Shown here one piece after another: positions 3,162-20,890 of a DNA stretch of 64,000 nucleotides. Source of the stretch: Rhipicephalus microplus (taxonomy: Eukaryota > Arthropoda > Arachnida > Ixodida > Ixodidae); NCBI RefSeq assembly GCF_043290135.1, contig NC_134705.1, positions 54,963,771 through 55,027,770 on the forward strand, read 5' to 3'. Under the pieces are notes generated by a model. That model was not told the origin of the DNA. It was given only the letters and a program-made list of their open reading frames with translations, and ran no database searches. Both the position numbers and the translations under genes were made by a program. Position 1 is the first letter of the stretch. Every line of letters starts with the position of its first letter.

Positions 3162-3189
3162 TTTATTTATTTATTTATTTATTTATTTA
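3162..3189 (-). repeat. (TAAA)n 3' tail of the LINE
   Basis: Seven TTTA units on the plus strand, which is a (TAAA)n tail at the 3' end of the minus-strand LINE. CR1/L2-group elements typically end in short tandem units instead of long poly(A). Confidence 0.8.
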
Positions 3190-3407: not shown

Positions 3408-6140
3408 CTAAACAAAAAAAAGTTTCAAGCTGTTTTCAATATCTTCGGACTGAAAAGCACTTATTGGTAAAGAGTTCCAGTCAGCAATAGTCCTAGGGAA
3501 AAAACTATTTTTAAAAGCAGTGGTACGGGCAAAAACTGGCGCCAATGAATATTTATGCTTATGTCTTGTTTTTCTAGAAGATAGAGGTTTCACACAGTTG
3601 GGCAGACTTGTTGTAACTTTACCGGAAAGAATTTTGTGTAGGAACGTTAACCGATTAATTTTCCTGCGAATTTCCAGTGTTTGGATATCATTTAGTTGCA
3701 TAAGTTGTGTTGGCGAATCATATCTTTTATATTTACTAAATATAAATCTGACAGCCTTCCGTTGAACTTTTTCAATCAAGGCAATATCTTTTTTACATTG
3801 AGGGTCCCAAACAACCGAGGCATATTCAAGTTTTGATCGGATGCAGGTGTTATATGCCAATAATCTAGTCTCCTTCGTTGAGGATTTAAGTTTCCTCTTA
3901 AGAAACCACAGTTTCCTAAGTGCAGCCGTGCATATGCTTGTAATGTGGTCTGACCACGTAAGTGACTTTGTCAAAGTGACTCCTAGATATTTGTATTTTT
4001 CTACGTCTTTGAGTGGGTTATTGCGGAGAAAATAAGTATAAAGGCTGGGAGTTCGTTTTCTTGTTATTCTCAAGAGAACTGTTTTGTCACTATTAAGTTC
4101 CATGCCCCAGTTTTGACACCACTCATCTATACTTGTAAGAGACTGTTGAAGTAATATGTGGTCATTTACACAACATATTTCTTTAAAAACAACACAATCA
4201 TCCGCGAATAATCTGACGGATATGTCCTTATGTACGACATCAACTAAATCATTAATAAAAATTAAGAATAACAAGGGGCCTAACACACTACCTTGTGGCA
4301 CACCAGAAGAAACATTTAGCGAAGAAGAAAAACAACCCCTGACCTCAACAAATTGAGTTCTGTTATTTAAGTACATATGAATCCATTTAACGATACCCGA
4401 AGGTAGCCCAATATTTTCGAGTTTAAACAAAAGTTTTCCATGAGGCACCTTATCAAACGCTTTGCTAAAATCTAAAAAGAACACATCAGTCTGCCCAGAT
4501 ATATCTAGAACCCGTGCGAATTCATGCACTGTAGACACAAGCTGTGTTACCGTAGACATATTTTTTCGGAAACCATGTTGATTAGGCGACAAAATATTAT
4601 TTTCTGATAAAAATGTGTTAATGTAATTTGCAACAACATGCTCTAACATTTTACAGCAGCTACTAGTGATAGAAACAGGACGGTAGTTTGTCAAAGAATA
4701 GCGGTTACCCTTTTTAAAGATCGGCACAACACGAGCTTTACGCCAATCGTCTGGTATCTGACCATATTTGAATGATACATTGAAAAGGGCAGTAAGGAAG
4801 TCAGTGATTTGTTCAGCATAGCGTCGTAGGAATGAATTACCAATGCCGTCAGGGCCTGACGATTTCTTAGGATTAACCTTAAGTAACATTTGTAAAACAC
4901 CTTCACGAGTTATCAGAACATCATCCGTGATTATGGGCATCGGGTCTCGCAGTTCATAATACTGTGGTTCGGAAAAGACGCTCTGAAAGTATTTATTAAA
5001 ATGATCAGCAATTAGTGCCGGATCTGTTATCGTGACCTCATCAACTTGTATTTCAGAAACGCCTTCTTTAGTTTGCTTAATATAGCGCCAAAATTTATCA
5101 GGATCTGTCCTGATGAATTCAGGTAGTGTGTCGTTAAAAAATTGATGCCTAGCCTTGCTAACACTCTCTAATAATTTTTCTTTAAGATCGGAAAAATGTT
5201 GCGTACTAGTCTTGTGTTTTTTTCGTAACCTTTTTATCTTTCTCTTGATCTGTATAATCTCACGGTTTATCCATGGGTTATGTGAACGCCTGCGTATTCT
5301 CCTAAGCGGTACAAAGTTCTTTGTACAGAAGTCCACAATACCACGGAAGCGTTGCCAGGCTCTATCAACATCACTAACAGATGTGGGGAGATGTGTTTCT
5401 AAATAATCAATTACTGCAACATCATCCGCTCGATTGAAATCTCTTACAACACTTTCCACTGGCGTTTTCACTGATTTACAACGTGCATGCCTGTCCCAAA
5501 CAAATGATATTAATCTATGGTCAGAAATACCGGTTTCAACTGTGATAGTCGCTTCGGTAAAGAGTTCCGTTGTAAATAGCAGATCAAGTATCGAACTCCC
5601 CCTTGTGGGGTGTCCTACCATTTGCTCAAGGCCTAGAGAAAACATTATGTCTAAGAGTGTGTCAGCCGAAGAAGAAGTACCATAATTTATATCATCCCAA
5701 TTAATGGCTGGCAGATTGAAGTCACCCGTTAAAATAAGATTTTTGCTTCGTAGACGTAGTAGTTCATCGTACAAACCGCTCATAAAAGAATCATCAGCAT
5801 TAGGACATCGATAAACCGCACAGAGAAAAAATGACATATCAGCAAATGAAAGTTTTAAAAGCAGACTCTCTCTCACTGGAAAACGCTCAGCAATAGTTAC
5901 ATCAATGCCATACTTGATAATGACAGCCACTCCACCGCCCCGATGACCACGATCACATCGAAAAAGTTGGTAGTTCGGCGGAACTATCTCGCTATCGCCA
6001 ATGGCTTCATGTAACCAAGACTCTGTTATCACACAGACATGAGGATCGTGCGTGAGCAAAATATTTTCCAACTTTTCAATTTTATTTGTTATACTCCGTG
6101 CATTGAAGCAAAGCAAACGAAGTTGGTGCTCCCCTAATTG
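3408..6140 (-). CDS. LINE ORF2: AP endonuclease plus reverse transcriptase
   Basis: Encodes the enzyme that nicks target DNA and reverse-transcribes the element's RNA on it. The frame is open from the codon after the ORF1 stop (6140) to 3408, about 910 codons. Counting from the codon at 6116: endonuclease residues include TESW (~31), GDFN (131) and SDH (198-200). Reverse transcriptase motifs are FLDFSKAFDKVPH (~548-559), SGVPQGSVLGP (~604-614) and FADD (637-640). There is no RNase H domain, as usual for CR1/L2. The codon at 6116 is TTG, not ATG, and the first in-frame ATG is codon 94, inside the endonuclease after its catalytic Glu. Initiation there would leave a dead endonuclease. The frame is continuous with ORF1 across one UAG, so I infer expression as an ORF1-ORF2 fusion by readthrough; non-AUG or reinitiated starts are alternatives. 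Confidence 0.92.
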   Translation of the reverse strand, partial: QLGEHQLRLLCFNARSITNKIEKLENILLTHDPHVCVITESWLHEAIGDSEIVPPNYQLFRCDRGHRGGGVAVIIKYGIDVTIAERFPVRESLLLKLSFADMSFFLCAVYRCPNADDSFMSGLYDELLRLRSKNLILTGDFNLPAINWDDINYGTSSSADTLLDIMFSLGLEQMVGHPTRGSSILDLLFTTELFTEATITVETGISDHRLISFVWDRHARCKSVKTPVESVVRDFNRADDVAVIDYLETHLPTSVSDVDRAWQRFRGIVDFCTKNFVPLRRIRRRSHNPWINREIIQIKRKIKRLRKKHKTSTQHFSDLKEKLLESVSKARHQFFNDTLPEFIRTDPDKFWRYIKQTKEGVSEIQVDEVTITDPALIADHFNKYFQSVFSEPQYYELRDPMPIITDDVLITREGVLQMLLKVNPKKSSGPDGIGNSFLRRYAEQITDFLTALFNVSFKYGQIPDDWRKARVVPIFKKGNRYSLTNYRPVSITSSCCKMLEHVVANYINTFLSENNILSPNQHGFRKNMSTVTQLVSTVHEFARVLDISGQTDVFFLDFSKAFDKVPHGKLLFKLENIGLPSGIVKWIHMYLNNRTQFVEVRGCFSSSLNVSSGVPQGSVLGPLLFLIFINDLVDVVHKDISVRLFADDCVVFKEICCVNDHILLQQSLTSIDEWCQNWGMELNSDKTVLLRITRKRTPSLYTYFLRNNPLKDVEKYKYLGVTLTKSLTWSDHITSICTAALRKLWFLKRKLKSSTKETRLLAYNTCIRSKLEYASVVWDPQCKKDIALIEKVQRKAVRFIFSKYKRYDSPTQLMQLNDIQTLEIRRKINRLTFLHKILSGKVTTSLPNCVKPLSSRKTRHKHKYSLAPVFARTTAFKNSFFPRTIADWNSLPISAFQSEDIENSLKLFFV

Positions 6141-6143
6141 CTA
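6135..6143 (-). promoter_or_regulatory. Candidate UAG readthrough site between ORF1 and ORF2
   Basis: On the minus strand ORF1 ends AGC-TAG and is followed immediately by CAA-TTA, with TAG at 6143-6141 and the hexamer at 6140-6135. UAG followed by CARYYA (classically CAAUUA) is the type I leaky-stop context known from tobamoviruses. Frames on both sides are the same: eight sense codons separate the stop from the codon at 6116. Readthrough function is inferred from sequence only. Confidence 0.65.
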
Positions 6144-7598
6144 GCTGGGATTCCCTACGGCACTCTCATGTGACACTTTCCTACGCGCATTAAGCGAGTC
6201 ATCCCAACAGAAAAAGGTGTGATCAATACGAAGCTTATCGTGAACAAGAGCAACCTTGCTACCGCTTTCTCTGTCTGCTTTTGCAGTTGCCCATAGCAGT
6301 TTTCTTTTGCGGAGTGTGTCAGAACAGTAGTCGTTTTGAAGATAAATTTTGGTTCCCTTCAGCTTATGTGCTTGACGCAACACAGCTTGCTTTTCCGTAT
6401 AATCTTGGAAAAAAAGTATAACAGGACGTCTGCTTGATACCGGCTTGCCTAATCTATGAATCCGCGCAATTGTCGTGCATTTCACCCCTAATCGATCATG
6501 AAATATGCCCTTCACTACCTTTTCACGTAGCTCTGCTTCAGATTCACTCCCAGCAGCGCTGATACCAAATACAAGAAGATTATTCCGGCGACTGCGATTC
6601 TCAAGGTCAACCAGCTTGGACTGATGAATATCAATTAACTGCTGAATGGAATCTACAGACTCCTGTATCGATTCGCTCACGCCCTTCTGAGTTTGTAATT
6701 GCTTAACATTTGCTTCTAAGTTATTCAGACGCACTCCAAAGGTGCTTATTAATGATTCTGTTGAGTCTAAACGTGCTCTAAGGCTTACAAGTTCTGCTCG
6801 GATATCAGATTGTCCCTTCAAGAGCTCGTGAAACATTTCATCAACAGTTGGCCCAGGGTTTTGCTCGACATCTCCACACAGCAATAACTTGCAAACAAAA
6901 TAACATTCATATGCAATAATAAAACATGTCTGTGGGCACGGCACAATAAGAAGTACAATTTCGTCTCCAGACCTATGATTTGAAAGAGAAAAACTAACCT
7001 GTACAACGAAAAAGAAGCGTTTCGTTAGCGGCATCTTTCCAGCCGCTTCGCCGTGCCCACTGAAGGTCCAACTGTGTGGCCTGTCTTTAAAAGGGCGATC
7101 CAACGATGACGTCACGGGCATGCAATGTTCCAGAGGGGGCGTATCCAGTATGTCCAAATTCGATGAAGGCACTGGACAGTAGTTAGCAGAGACAGATGTA
7201 ATCGCCGCAACTTCATTCCCGGTAGTGCAAGGTTCCGATGGCCCGGCGAGCATGAAAAACACGGCCTGTACAACGAAAAAGAAGCGTTTCGTTAGCGGCA
7301 TCTTTCCAGCCGCTTCGCCGTGCCCACTGAAGGTCCAACTGTGTGGCCTGTCTTTAAAAGGGCGATCCAACGATGACGTCACGGGCATGCAATGTTCCAG
7401 AGGGGGCGTATCCAGTATGTCCAAATTCGATGAAGGCACTGGACAGTAGTTAGCAGAGACAGATGTAATCGCCGCAACTTCATTCCCGGTAGTGCAAGGT
7501 TCCGATGGCCCGGCGAGCATGAAAAACACGGCCTGTACAACGAAAAAGAAGCGTTTCGTTAGCGGCATCTTTCCAGCCGCTTCGCCGTGCCCACTCAT
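6141..7598 (-). CDS. LINE ORF1: coiled-coil RNA-binding protein with 2A-like motif
   Basis: ORF1 proteins of this type trimerise through a coiled coil and coat the element RNA. The frame is open from an ATG at 7598, but its first ~188 codons are two 267-bp monomers (89 codons each) that are more likely promoter units. The minimal start is the ATG at 7034, giving 297 residues. From that start, residues 1-52 are hydrophobic, GDVEQNPGP lies at 54-62, a heptad-like coiled coil runs from about 70 to 150, and then comes an L1-ORF1-like RNA-binding region (NNLLVFGIS ... RRPVILFFQDY ... KGTKIYLQNDYC). It ends in UAG and continues in frame into ORF2. Which ATG is used cannot be told from sequence alone. 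Confidence 0.82.
   Translation of the reverse strand: MSGHGEAAGKMPLTKRFFFVVQAVFFMLAGPSEPCTTGNEVAAITSVSANYCPVPSSNLDILDTPPLEHCMPVTSSLDRPFKDRPHSWTFSGHGEAAGKMPLTKRFFFVVQAVFFMLAGPSEPCTTGNEVAAITSVSANYCPVPSSNLDILDTPPLEHCMPVTSSLDRPFKDRPHSWTFSGHGEAAGKMPLTKRFFFVVQVSFSLSNHRSGDEIVLLIVPCPQTCFIIAYECYFVCKLLLCGDVEQNPGPTVDEMFHELLKGQSDIRAELVSLRARLDSTESLISTFGVRLNNLEANVKQLQTQKGVSESIQESVDSIQQLIDIHQSKLVDLENRSRRNNLLVFGISAAGSESEAELREKVVKGIFHDRLGVKCTTIARIHRLGKPVSSRRPVILFFQDYTEKQAVLRQAHKLKGTKIYLQNDYCSDTLRKRKLLWATAKADRESGSKVALVHDKLRIDHTFFCWDDSLNARRKVSHESAVGNPS
6849..6875 (-). other. 2A-like ribosome-skipping motif in ORF1
   Basis: Codons for GDVEQNPGP, matching the 2A consensus D-x-E-x-N-P-G-P, preceded by a hydrophobic stretch ending CKLLLC. 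In known 2A sequences the ribosome fails to link the final G-P pair, here between 6852-6854 (Gly) and 6849-6851 (Pro). With the 7034 start this would release a 61-residue hydrophobic leader from the rest of ORF1. Such motifs are known from several APE-type LINEs (for example sea urchin CR1-like elements). Activity here is inferred. Confidence 0.85.
6998..7595 (-). repeat. Tandem 267-bp 5' monomers of the LINE
   Basis: Two full copies (6998-7264 and 7265-7531) that look identical by eye, plus a 64-bp partial copy (7532-7595). Each full copy carries a palindromic TGACGTCA (7107-7114 and 7374-7381), the cAMP-response-element core. Position at the 5' end of a LINE and near-perfect identity resemble promoter monomers of mouse L1. 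The period is a multiple of three, so ORF1 stays open through them. Confidence 0.9.
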
Positions 7599-10908: not shown

Positions 10909-10922
10909 ACTGATAGTAACGC
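10909..10922. repeat. Left copy of 14-bp target-site duplication
   Basis: ACTGATAGTAACGC, repeated exactly at 12840-12853 on the other side of the Penelope-like element. Confidence 0.75.
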
Positions 10923-12839
10923 CTGCGTGTTCTTCTGTCGGACAAAGAAGGATCCTTTGTAGTTATGCCTGAAGGTATGTTCAGTGAAAAAGCAGGTGCG
11001 GCGGTGTGTAAAAACTTTCGCGAAGTGTCGGAGAAGCCGCAGGAGGTAGTAAAAAAAGTGCGCGAGCTCCTACTTCGGGTAAACTTGGAAAAAGTGTGCA
11101 GTGAAGTGAAAAAGATGAAAGGCTCAACTATGGAGACATTCTTTTCAGTGAAAACACACAAACCAGACTTTCCTTTCCGTGCGATCGTGTCGGAGAGAGG
11201 CACTTGGTGTCTTGCGGTGTCTACCTATCTTCAGTCGCAGTTGAGCTCACTGAAAGTGGAGGACCCGTTCATCATTCCGAACTCGTCTACGGTAGTGGAT
11301 TTCCTTAAAGGAAATGTCCATGAGAACACTTCGGGATTTAGCATCGACATAGAAGACTTATATTATTCACTGCCTCATGATGAACTGATGACTAGTGTGA
11401 AAGAGTGCATTGGCAACAATGATGAAATGAAGTTTGTGACCAAGTGCGGCATCTCTGTTCAAAGTTTTTTAGAATTATTGTTCTTTTACATAAAACACAC
11501 GTACGTCGGCTGGAAGGGTAAGAACTTTGTGCAGAGATCAGGGATCTGTATTGGATCCAAAGTGGCTCCAGTACTGAGCAACATTTTTTTAGCCAGAGTT
11601 GACAACGATCTTGTAACTGGCCTTGATGGTTTGGTCCAAAAAGTGTACAGATATGTGGACGACTATTTGCTGTTGATTAATTCAGACAACTTTGATAGAA
11701 GAGTTGATGAAGTGCTCAGTGTGTTTGGTAATAAGGGGCGGGGCTTGACATTCACGCGCGAAGTGCCGAAGAATGGAATGCTGCGTTTTCTGGATTTGCA
11801 GCTGTCATTCCAACAAAAACACGTGTGTTGGATGTTTTCCCCTAGGACCGCGAAGCCGCTTCTTGATTACAGCTCTGGGCACTCTCGCCTAGTAAAAAAT
11901 GGCATTGCCATGACGTGCCTAAAAACGGCGTTGGACAGATCATGCCCACATCTTATGGAGACAAGTTTTTTCGCGCAGGTAGAAAGACTAAGAGACGCGG
12001 CGTTTCCTGATAGTGTCTTAGCTGCTGCTTGCGAAAAAATAAAAAAGTCCATTAAGCAACGGCCTGGGACAGGCCTAGACACGAATGTCCCGCAGGGAAG
12101 AAAAAGTGTGTCAAAAATCCCGTATATCCACTGGCTTTCGCACGGCCTTAAGAGAGTGGCTTCGAGGTATGGGGTGGATCTCGTGTTCTCCGCAGAAAAC
12201 AAGGTGGGCCGCATCTGCTCAGCGGTTGGTAAGAAGACAGGTAGGCCAAAGCAGTGTGAAAAAAGAGGATGTGCCATTAAGCACGTAAGACAGTTCGTTC
12301 CTTGCGCACGTGGTGTTGTATATAGAACACCACTGCCGTGCGGCAAGGCATACATAGGGCAAACTGGTAGATGCCTCAACGTGCGGTTGCGAGAGCACAG
12401 CAGCTCTTTAATAGGAAGGCCGTTCACGCATCTGGCGATGCATTGCAGAGGATGCGGTCAGGGTAACTGTAAGCCGGTATTTGAGCAGACAACTGTAATC
12501 TACAGGCACAGGGGCTCAGCGGAGAGGGAGATTATGGAAGCCCTCTTTATCCAGAGGGAGGGGCCTGATTGCATCAGCCACCCCTCTATCAGTCTGCAGG
12601 AAGGGGAGATAGCCTATCTGCAACGTTACTTATAGGCATGCTGAGCACGTAGTTTTAGTTTTTGGTCGATTCGTTGGGTTAAATTTGATGTCACTGCGGT
12701 ATAAATGGTGTTTCCTGAATAAAATATTCCAGTTGCTAGTAGCGCGTCGTCCCGTGTACTTCTTCTCTGTTGTGTGTCGTTTTTTTTTCGCGCCCCTTAT
12801 CATCATGAACCAGCACCAACTCGCCCAACTTTTTACTTT
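10923..12839 (+). mobile_element. 5'-truncated Penelope-like element
   Basis: A retroelement of about 1.9 kb bounded by exact 14-bp direct repeats. It has a long open frame for reverse transcriptase joined to a GIY-YIG endonuclease and a ~200-bp 3' UTR ending in the sequence before 12840. Homology to the RT N-terminal part starts right at the left boundary (SDKEGSFVVM read upstream of the first ATG), so the insertion is truncated inside the coding region. Full-length elements usually encode about 750-850 residues. Confidence 0.88.
10965..12635 (+). CDS. Penelope-like RT plus GIY-YIG endonuclease (N-terminally truncated)
   Basis: 556 codons with no stop. Reverse transcriptase blocks: SIDIEDLYYSLPHDEL (~126, first catalytic Asp), GICIGSKVAPVLSNIF (~195) and YRYVDDYLLL (~228-237, catalytic DD), then MLRFLDLQL. 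A Cys-rich segment (CEKRGCAIKH) precedes the GIY-YIG endonuclease: GVVYRTPLPCGKAYIGQTGR (~449), RLREH, and HCRGCGQGNC, ending with the family's EIMEALFI Glu. Both enzyme domains look intact, but the RT start is missing and the listed ATG is simply the first Met after the truncation point. The frame is open upstream to the insertion boundary at 10922. It was probably dead on arrival as a retrotransposon, though recent enough to keep its frame. Confidence 0.9.
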   Translation: MPEGMFSEKAGAAVCKNFREVSEKPQEVVKKVRELLLRVNLEKVCSEVKKMKGSTMETFFSVKTHKPDFPFRAIVSERGTWCLAVSTYLQSQLSSLKVEDPFIIPNSSTVVDFLKGNVHENTSGFSIDIEDLYYSLPHDELMTSVKECIGNNDEMKFVTKCGISVQSFLELLFFYIKHTYVGWKGKNFVQRSGICIGSKVAPVLSNIFLARVDNDLVTGLDGLVQKVYRYVDDYLLLINSDNFDRRVDEVLSVFGNKGRGLTFTREVPKNGMLRFLDLQLSFQQKHVCWMFSPRTAKPLLDYSSGHSRLVKNGIAMTCLKTALDRSCPHLMETSFFAQVERLRDAAFPDSVLAAACEKIKKSIKQRPGTGLDTNVPQGRKSVSKIPYIHWLSHGLKRVASRYGVDLVFSAENKVGRICSAVGKKTGRPKQCEKRGCAIKHVRQFVPCARGVVYRTPLPCGKAYIGQTGRCLNVRLREHSSSLIGRPFTHLAMHCRGCGQGNCKPVFEQTTVIYRHRGSAEREIMEALFIQREGPDCISHPSISLQEGEIAYLQRYL

Positions 12840-18085: not shown

Positions 18086-20890
18086 TTGGCCACCCTGGTG
18101 CAGTATCTGGCCACTACCTCCCAGATGCATACGTCAAATAGCTCACGGCCCTCAGTTCCCAGCAGCTGCGAAGTAACTGACCATGGCGGCGGTCAGATCT
18201 GCAACCCAGCAGAGGGTGCTAAGAATCTCTGGACTACAGGCCGCCTTTGCAACCTGAACTTGGCAACATTTAACGCTAGAACCTTATCTAGTGAGGAAAG
18301 TCTAGCTGTACTACTTGAAGAGCTAGAGGTTGTTAAATGGGATATAATATGGCTCTGTGATGTTAGGAGGACAGATGAGGCCTATACTGTGCTACCGAAT
18401 GGGCACGTCCTTTGCTATCGAGGCCTGGCAGACAGAAGAGAACTGGGAGTGGGGCTCCTAATTCACAGAAACATAGCTGGCAACATAGAGGAATACTATA
18501 GCAATAATGAAATAGTGGTAGGTATTGTAATTAAACTGAATAAAAGATACAAGATGAACGTAGTACAGGCCCACGCACCTACATCCAGCCATGATGACGC
18601 TTCAGTTGAAAGCTTCTATGAAGACGTGGAATCGGCAATGAGTAAGGTAAAAACATAGTATACTATAGTGATGGGCGACTTTAATGCAAAGGTAGGGAAG
18701 AAGCAGGCTGCAGACCAGGCAGTAGGAGATTATGGCATCGGCACTAAAAACGCCAGAGGAGAACTACTAGTAGAATTCGCAGAACGCAAAAATTTGCGGA
18801 TTTTGAATACTTCCTACCGAAAACAAGAAAACCGCAAGGGGAGATGGAGGAGCCCTAATGGCGGAAATAAGAACGAAATATACTTTATAATGACTGCACA
18901 CCCAGGAATCGTGCAGGATGTGGAAGTGCTTGGCAAGGTACAATGCAGTGACCATACAATGGTACTGTCTCGAATTCGCTTAGACTTGAAAAAGGAACGA
19001 CAAAAACTGACACGCAAGAAGCCAATCAATGAGTTATTACTGAGAGGGAAAGTACAGGAATTCAGAGTGTCGCTGCAGAACAGGTACTCGGCTCTCATTG
19101 AGGGAAGCAACGTTAGCGTTGACGCAATGAATGGTGATCTGACGAGCATCATTACGGAGTGTGCAGTGGAAGTTGGAGGCAGGGTAGTTTGACAGGACAC
19201 TGGCAAGCTTTCCCAGGAAGCGAAGAACCTAATTAAGAAGCGTCAAAACATGAAAGTGTCAAGTACAACAGACAAAATAGAACTGGCAGAGCTTTCAAAG
19301 TTGATTAATAGGCGTAAAGTATGCGATGTAAGAAGGTATAACATGGAGAGAATTGAACACGCTCTGAAAAACGAAAGAAGCATCAAAGCAGTGAAGAGGA
19401 AACTTGGGATAGGCAAAAATTGTATGTATGCACTAAGGGACAAAGAAGTCAAAATAACTACAAATGAGGATAGGATCGTTAAAATAGCGGAGGAGTTTTA
19501 CAGAGACCTATAGAGTAGCCGGGACAGCCCCAAACTTAATAATATAGGAACAAGCAGTAACTCAGATGACACCCTACCAGTAAGAATAGAAGAAGTTAGA
19601 GAAGCCTTAGAGAGCATGCAAAGAGGCAAAGCTGCTGGTGAGGATCAGGTAACATCAGATCTACTGAAAGATGGAGGACAGATTGTGTTGGAAAATTTAG
19701 CCATTCTGTTTACGAGGTGCTTGCTGAGGGTAAGAGTACCAGAGTCTTGGAATAATGCTAACATCATCCTAATACATAAAAAAAGAGTTGACAGGGACTT
19801 GAACTACAGGCTGATCAGCTTGCTCTCTGTAGTATACAAGCTATTTACAAAGGTAATTGCTAACAGAGGAAAGAAAACATTAGAATTCTATCAACCAAAG
19901 GAACAAGCAGGATTTTGAACAGGCTACTTAACAATTGACCACATTCATACTATCAATCAGGTAATAGAGAAATGCTCAGAGTATAACGAATCACTATACA
20001 TAGCCTTCGTAGATTACGAGAAGGCGTTTGATTCAGTAGAAATATCAGTCGTCATGCAGACACTGCGGAATCAGAGCGTAGATGAAGTATATATAAACAT
20101 TCTGGAAGAAATCTACAGGGGTTCAACTGCTACAATAGTGCTTCATAAAGAAAGCAACAGAATACCAATCAAGAAAGGTGTAAAGGCAGGGGGACACAAT
20201 CTCCACAATGCTATTTACCGCGTGCTTACAGGAGGTTTTCAGAAGCCTCGAATGCGAACAGTTAGGGATAAGAGTTAATGGAGAATACTTTAGTAACCTG
20301 CGCTTCGCCGATGACATTGCATTGCTGAGTAACTCAGGGTGTGAATTGCAACTCATGATTACGGAGTTACACAAGGAGAGCAGAAAGGTGGGTCCTAAAA
20401 TTAATCTGCAGCAAACGAAAGTAATGTACAAACACCTCGGAGAGGAGCAGCGCTTCGAAATAGGTAATAGTGCCCTTGAGGTTGTAAAAGACTATGTCTA
20501 CTTAGGGCAGGTAATAACCACAGAGCCTTAGCACGAGATTGAAGTAACTAGAAGAATAAGAATGGGGTGGAGTACATTCGGCAAGCACTCTCAAATTATG
20601 ACAGGTAGATTGCCACTATCCCTCAAGAAGAAGGTATACAACAGCTGTATCTTTGATGTACTTAGCTACGGAGCAGAAACCTGGAGACTTACAAAGAGGG
20701 TTCAGCTTAAATTGAGGACGACGCAGCGAGCAATGGAATGAAGAATGGTAGGTGTAACCTTAAGGGTCAAGAAGAGAGCAGAGTGGATTAGGGGACAAAC
20801 GGGTGTTAAGGATATCATAGTTGAAATAAAGAAGAGGAATTGGACATGGGCCGGGCATGTAGCGCGTAGACAGGATAACCGCTGGTCATT
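18086..20890 (+). pseudogene. RTE endonuclease-reverse transcriptase, broken
   Basis: Endonuclease start LATFNARTLSSEES and body to GVGLLIHRN in the frame ending at a stop near 18656. The next frame opens with MMGDFNAKVG (18668), the catalytic GDFN block, and reaches CSDHTMVLSRIRLDL. RT pieces follow in several frames: GKAAGEDQVTSDLLKDGG (~19625), FVDYEKAFDSVE (~20008-20043), RFADDIALLSN (~20300-20335) and VKDYVYLGQVIT (~20486-20518). At least five interruptions. The usual RT block 'GVRQGD.ISP' is altered to GVKAGGHNLH. No functional protein can be made. Confidence 0.82.

Follow-up and report, generated by a model that had tools for sequence, protein, structure and literature searches.

We describe a long interspersed nuclear element (LINE) on the minus strand of a 64,000-nucleotide stretch of the genome of the tick Rhipicephalus microplus (NCBI RefSeq assembly GCF_043290135.1, contig NC_134705.1, positions 54,963,771 to 55,027,770; hereafter the window). 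Judged from sequence comparison, its second open reading frame (ORF2) is most probably made as an ORF1-ORF2 fusion, by programmed readthrough of the stop at the end of ORF1. The general feature of six related families in this genome is a UAG or UGA stop followed by C, with ORF1 and ORF2 in a common frame; the readthrough hexamer CARYYA is limited to the family of the window (F1). How a LINE translates its second ORF is a long-standing question, and reinitiation has been offered as an answer: stop-start reinitiation, described for SART1, and unconventional reinitiation, proposed for L1 (PMC5972666). A leaky stop, if true, would be an unusual route to the copying enzyme for LINEs. The full-length element spans approximately 7595 to 3162 and is laid out as follows (window positions):

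6998 to 7595, minus strand: 5' tandem array of two perfect 267-bp monomers and one partial copy of 64 bp (repeat families D1 and D2, 100% identity)
6144 to 7034, minus strand: ORF1, 297 amino acids counted from the ATG of the last monomer, the putative start (open from 7622 to 6144)
6849 to 6875, minus strand: core of a candidate 2A (StopGo) peptide, GDVEQNPGP, in ORF1, read from the sequence
6141 to 6143, minus strand: UAG stop codon of ORF1, the proposed leaky stop, read from the sequence
6135 to 6140, minus strand: CAAUUA, which fits the type I readthrough hexamer CARYYA, read from the sequence
3408 to 6140, minus strand: ORF2, 910 amino acids plus stop, in frame with ORF1 (last sense codon ends at 3411)
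3162 to 3188, minus strand: AAAT-repeat 3' tail, read from the sequence

A preliminary description of this DNA had proposed that ORF1 ends in UAG with CAAUUA immediately after it, and that ORF2 continues in the ORF1 frame. Across the junction the minus strand reads AAT CCC AGC TAG CAA TTA GGG GAG, and a single stop (6143-6141) separates ORF1 (7622-6144) from ORF2 (6140-3411) in one frame. The UUG codon reported at 6116 is present as TTG and is ORF2 codon 9. An early AUG is indeed missing from ORF2, but its first in-frame ATG is codon 102, at 5837, and not codon 94 as had been given; the earlier figure was a count from the UUG at 6116. As also described, this AUG lies past the catalytic Glu, codon 102 being located after endonuclease residues N13 and E40, putatively catalytic by analogy with the L1 endonuclease. 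Type I readthrough, known from tobacco mosaic virus, has UAG CAR YYA as its consensus (PMC3542737). The motif alone says little because its frequency in the window is about as expected (7 matches to TAGCARYYA, 5.1 expected). At one pre-specified stop its probability is ~0.00055 from base composition, a figure that takes no account of the common frame or of the lack of an early AUG. A protein search with the read-through junction as query returned 10 matches among 3268 scored candidates, and 0/10 span both ORFs.

Next, we examined further copies of F1. All copy counts in this work come from one tick genome, the window's own (3.26 Gb), and other ticks are represented by proteins only. Of 147 candidates found with a 501-base query across the junction, 40 received a score, and all 40 were examined. 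The type I signal with an in-frame downstream ORF, proposed earlier for the window, is present there and in all 40 copies: UAG was found in 40/40, ORF2 lies in the ORF1 frame in 40/40, and the hexamer is CAATTA in 39/40 and CAATCA, still a CARYYA, in 1/40. Five of the 40 copies, including the window's own (L020), are identical to the window across 1203 bases at the junction, and F1 is therefore a young family. Among 39 copies (the misaligned L046 was omitted), we counted 31 distinct single-base variants flanking the stop, of which 14 are synonymous, 17 non-synonymous and none nonsense, with ~25% synonymous expected. This pattern weakly indicates coding constraint on both sides of the stop.

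Five more families, F2 to F6, were reached through ORF1 relatives; the total of six families (seven with subfamily F4b) is a lower bound. F2 (P0157 type; P0157 is an R. microplus protein with a 100% match in the tick genome) has TGA CGCCAA at 6 and TGA CGCAAA at 24 of the 30 loci that were cut out, from 87 matches. F3 has TGA CAGGCA in 11/11 copies examined (13 listed at 45% identity). The junction is TAG CTTTCA in F4 (P0123 type; 5/5) and in F4b (86-89%; 3/3), TAG CTATGC in F5 (P0008 type; 13/13) and TAG CCACTC in F6 (5/5). Across all families, 107/107 copies have UAG or UGA as the stop, C as the next base and ORF2 in the ORF1 frame, a count that retains decayed copies, for example L121 with its further stops. 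The preliminary description had held that a sense codon in place of the stop, ORF2 in different frames, or a conserved ORF2 AUG would each speak against readthrough. A sense codon was found in 0/107 copies and another frame in 0/107, and no AUG is common to the families. Conservation of UAG together with CAAUUA, which the same description had looked for, was borne out within F1 but does not extend to F2-F6, where the hexamer is not kept.

The first 79 codons of ORF2 are 36-67% identical among the six families, a distance that gave the junctions time to diverge. According to family, the stop is followed by CAA, CGC, CAG, CUU, CUA or CCA, so it is the C that is conserved and not the amino acid. 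By chance, C would be found in all six families with a probability of 4e-5 (C makes up 18.6% of first positions over 773 codons) and frame 0 in all six with a probability of 0.0014, shared ancestry not being removed from either figure. In family representatives, the linker from the stop to the NxRS motif of the endonuclease measures 12, 13 or 14 codons; since the linkers are whole codons, insertions and deletions have preserved the frame. In the representatives of F1, F2, F3, F5 and F6, the first AUG encountered downstream of the stop does not lie in the ORF2 frame. In F5 (L107-L118, L124), we noted an out-of-frame AUG only two bases past the stop (TAG CTATG), at which AUG reinitiation would therefore enter the wrong frame. 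Two candidates for a shared ORF2 AUG were rejected: the start of P0008 corresponds to V in F5 copies (A in L111), and the predicted start residue of P0006 is V in F4. Taken together, the six families show the features by which readthrough is recognized, namely same-frame coding past the stop, a conserved stop and, except in F4, no independent start.

The stop, frame and AUG results support the earlier proposal of an ORF1-ORF2 fusion, and from the sequence we infer readthrough itself, its rate and the inserted amino acid. In the mechanism that we propose, ribosomes would translate the leader and then undergo StopGo at the 2A peptide. The L1-type ORF1 protein would be made next, and most ribosomes would terminate at the UAG. 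In the CAAUUA context, a near-cognate tRNA would decode a minority of the UAGs, and elongation would pass directly into ORF2 to yield an ORF1-ORF2 fusion, as in retroviral gag-pol. CARYYA, as CAAUUA in the OPRL1 context, gives ~15% readthrough with UGA in human cells, similar readthrough with UAG and far less with UAA, and UGA-CUAG drives readthrough in human cells more strongly than CARYYA does there (PMC4132726). Moreover, near-cognate decoding is favoured by a C after UGA (PMC12233894).

Several observations weigh against this interpretation. F1 alone has a canonical type I hexamer; CAGGCA of F3 fits the yeast motif CARNBA, and UAG CUU, UAG CUA, UAG CCA and UGA CGC are merely stop-C contexts. 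Reinitiation could make use of an in-frame AUG at codon 11 of F4, the sole family with such an AUG before the endonuclease Asn; in F4b this AUG is replaced by Val. RNA folding around and downstream of the stop gave no significant structure (z -1.45, 0.00 and -1.89). Because the junction itself was the query and only the best-scoring matches were taken, the F1 copies are biased towards intact ones and are non-independent; copy counts within the other families are likewise non-independent, and for F4, F4b, F5 and F6 the 26 places were chosen by hand across the identity classes of 93 matches. In one human context UAG readthrough was only 0.4% (PMC12233894). Abundant host-gene readthrough is reported for no tested species outside Pancrustacea, with one arachnid named in an earlier test (PMC5100048). 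The case is the more informative because such abundant readthrough of host genes is not known to be a trait of non-pancrustacean arthropods. Lastly, frame 0 is not universal among more distant relatives, since three of five junctions there are in the -1 frame (see below).

The strongest competitor, which we nevertheless regard as unlikely, is termination-reinitiation, in which ribosomes would remain on the mRNA after the ORF1 stop and begin ORF2 a little further downstream, at a near-cognate non-AUG codon such as the UUG at codon 9. The SART1 and L1 precedents (PMC5972666) speak for it, as does the existence of a candidate start, the TTG at 6116. Yet reinitiation requires neither a shared frame, nor whole-codon linkers, nor stop-C, and all six families have all three; the predicted ORF2 starts of database relatives are also scattered. 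Internal initiation of ORF2 at a non-AUG codon, uncoupled from ORF1 and through an internal ribosome entry site or leaky scanning, is less probable still. The start of ORF2 without an AUG leaves room for it but lends no direct support, neither the common frame nor the stop-C among families would be expected from it, and the lack of significant folding near the stop was counted against it. Since the shared frame, whole-codon linkers and stop-C are predicted by neither mechanism, they favour readthrough.

Two other explanations were refuted and retain next to no probability. Distant relatives P0020 and P0022, in which the N-terminal region and the endonuclease-reverse transcriptase stand in a single uninterrupted ORF (2A, PHD and endonuclease-reverse transcriptase all in one frame), would suit a chance mutation or assembly error that placed the UAG in just one copy of an element with a single ORF. 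This is contradicted by UAG in every scored F1 copy, by a stop in the same place in 107/107 copies of six families, and by the absence of fused proteins among the 10 junction matches. Ribosomal frameshifting between ORF1 and ORF2 has a counterpart in three distant LINE loci with ORF2 in the -1 frame (L001, L003 and L005), two of them with canonical slippery sites; in the tick families, where ORF2 is in frame 0, a frameshift would exit the ORF2 frame.

These distant loci were found among bacterial and archaeal genome records, a scan of which gave 17 loci, several being LINEs of evident eukaryotic origin in contigs of metagenome-assembled genomes (MAGs). The contigs carrying the six nearest loci, L001-L006, are probably contaminated or mis-binned, because they hold eukaryotic-looking LINE sequence although their records are labelled as MAGs of bacteria or archaea. 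The six loci give five junctions, L002 and L006 being one family. L004 (1088-1096) has 362 open codons, UGA CUAG and an in-frame ORF2 whose endonuclease motif is not preceded by a Met, and L002/L006 has UGA CAAACC with ORF2 in the same frame. ORF2 is in the -1 frame at the other three. L001 (459-492) has a 34-nt overlap with U UUU UUA, and an in-frame ATG precedes its endonuclease, so that a frameshift is not required there; L003 (1601-1628) has G GGA AAC in a 28-nt overlap and, like L004, lacks a Met ahead of its endonuclease motif; the 40-nt overlap of L005 is without a canonical slippery site. The chance of a canonical heptamer in such an overlap is 0.04 for L001 and 0.016 for L003. Thus, frame 0 was found at 2/5 and the -1 frame at 3/5 of the distant junctions, with canonical recoding signals at 3/5. 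Two loci that are more distant still differ from these: both L010 and L007 have an AUG where the endonuclease begins, and L010 contains several stops. On balance, we lean slightly towards a broad CR1-like group of LINEs with a gag-pol logic, in which the endonuclease and reverse transcriptase would be made solely by extending ORF1 through recoding, at a leaky UAG/UGA-C (in ticks; UGA CUAG in L004) or, in other members, by a -1 frameshift at one of the heptamers U UUU UUA and G GGA AAC. In ticks this would follow StopGo at the 2A peptide, giving two serial recodings, and readthrough would set the ORF1:ORF2 ratio.

We then characterized the encoded proteins. ORF2 matched the Pfam families Exo_endo_phos (residues 12-208, E 1e-9), Exo_endo_phos_2 (E 2e-11) and RVT_1 (residues 476-723, E 4e-39), and its profile matched LINE-1 ORF2p (E 1.7e-52). 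With RVT_1 and an apurinic/apyrimidinic endonuclease (APE) domain, the element is an APE-type LINE. It probably belongs to the CR1/L2 group, an assignment based on general similarity and ORF1 type. ORF1 consists of a short hydrophobic leader, the 2A peptide, a long coiled coil, an RNA-recognition motif (RRM) and a C-terminal domain (CTD). The window ORF1 protein by itself matched no Pfam LINE family. A profile of 29 sequences (the window and 28 of 63 ORF1 matches) matched human L1 ORF1p (2ykp, E 2.4e-9); an AlphaFold model of ORF1 had a mean predicted local distance difference test (pLDDT) score of 85, and its top eight Foldseek matches in the PDB were all human L1 ORF1p. With its predicted coiled coil, RRM and CTD, ORF1 is of type II (LINE-1-like), as sequence profile and model agree.

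The 63 ORF1 matches include proteins of Rhipicephalus, Amblyomma, Dermacentor, Ixodes, Haemaphysalis and Ornithodoros. In the 29 aligned sequences, the G-D and N-P-G-P columns of the 2A alignment are invariant (29/29). NPGP is present in 47/63 matches, partial sequences included; many of the 16/63 without it are short, P0142 and P0163 have an altered motif, and P0132 and P0167 have none. The motif is in frame and conforms to D(V/I)ExNPGP, by which 2A/StopGo is recognized, and a working 2A is predicted. Seven database ORF1 proteins (P0123, P0124, P0125, P0143, P0144, P0146 and P0157) begin with in-frame repeats of 78-107 amino acids. Similarly, the 5' monomers of the window element are open and in frame with ORF1, and the open frame reaches 7622. 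By eye, each monomer also has a pyrimidine tract and CAG, with GTTAGT after the last one, resembling splice sites. The element as a whole looks active.

Several known systems resemble parts of this arrangement. As in type I readthrough of tobacco mosaic virus, UAG CAA UUA is followed by an in-frame, polymerase-bearing ORF; the tick case differs in being an animal LINE, with the hexamer in F1 and only stop-C shared by the five related families. Murine leukaemia virus (MuLV) makes gag-pol by stop readthrough. The same holds for Tca2 of Candida, a long terminal repeat (LTR) element (PMC2194720). Like these, the tick element has a structural or RNA-binding ORF and, beyond a single stop, an ORF for the polymerase that keeps to the same frame, but it is a non-LTR element with an APE endonuclease and an L1-type ORF1 instead of Gag, and no significant downstream structure was found. 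Type II ORF1 proteins are known in the CR1 and L2 clades (PMC4120745). CR1/L2-group LINEs of this kind resemble the tick element in their L1-type ORF1 (coiled coil, RRM, CTD), APE endonuclease and reverse transcriptase, whereas the tick ORF2 stands in frame behind a stop with no AUG at its start, and a 2A lies near the ORF1 N-terminus. As in SART1, translation of ORF2 would be coupled to ORF1 termination, but where SART1 has an overlapping UAAUG (PMC5972666), the tick junction has no AUG and a shared frame. The GDVExNPGP near the ORF1 N-terminus recalls 2A/StopGo non-LTR elements, differing in that recoding is also proposed at a second site downstream of the tick 2A, namely at the leaky stop. 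Such 2A/StopGo sequences in non-LTR elements were reportedly described by Odon et al. in 2013. Among the literature matches listed, themselves available in part, we found no prior description of stop readthrough between LINE ORF1 and ORF2; this coverage is incomplete and novelty is unproven.

If true, readthrough at this junction would mean that non-LTR elements also arrived at the retroviral gag-pol solution, and that the 2A and the leaky stop are two recoding events on one mRNA. ORF2p could then join the ribonucleoprotein as an extension of an ORF1 subunit, and the ORF1:ORF2 ratio would be directly measurable by a reporter.

Within the 64-kb window, no further copies of the family were found except the element's own monomers, and an Rfam scan at the gathering threshold gave a single tRNA, away from the element. 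Viral contigs scanned with ORF2 and with the ORF2 alignment yielded zero confirmed relatives. Elsewhere in the window, a 571-amino-acid open frame at 10920-12635 on the plus strand has, by eye, a Penelope-like look with reverse transcriptase and GIY-YIG regions, and another LINE reverse transcriptase fragment, 22-29% identical to the group of the element, lies at 19496-20684 on the plus strand.

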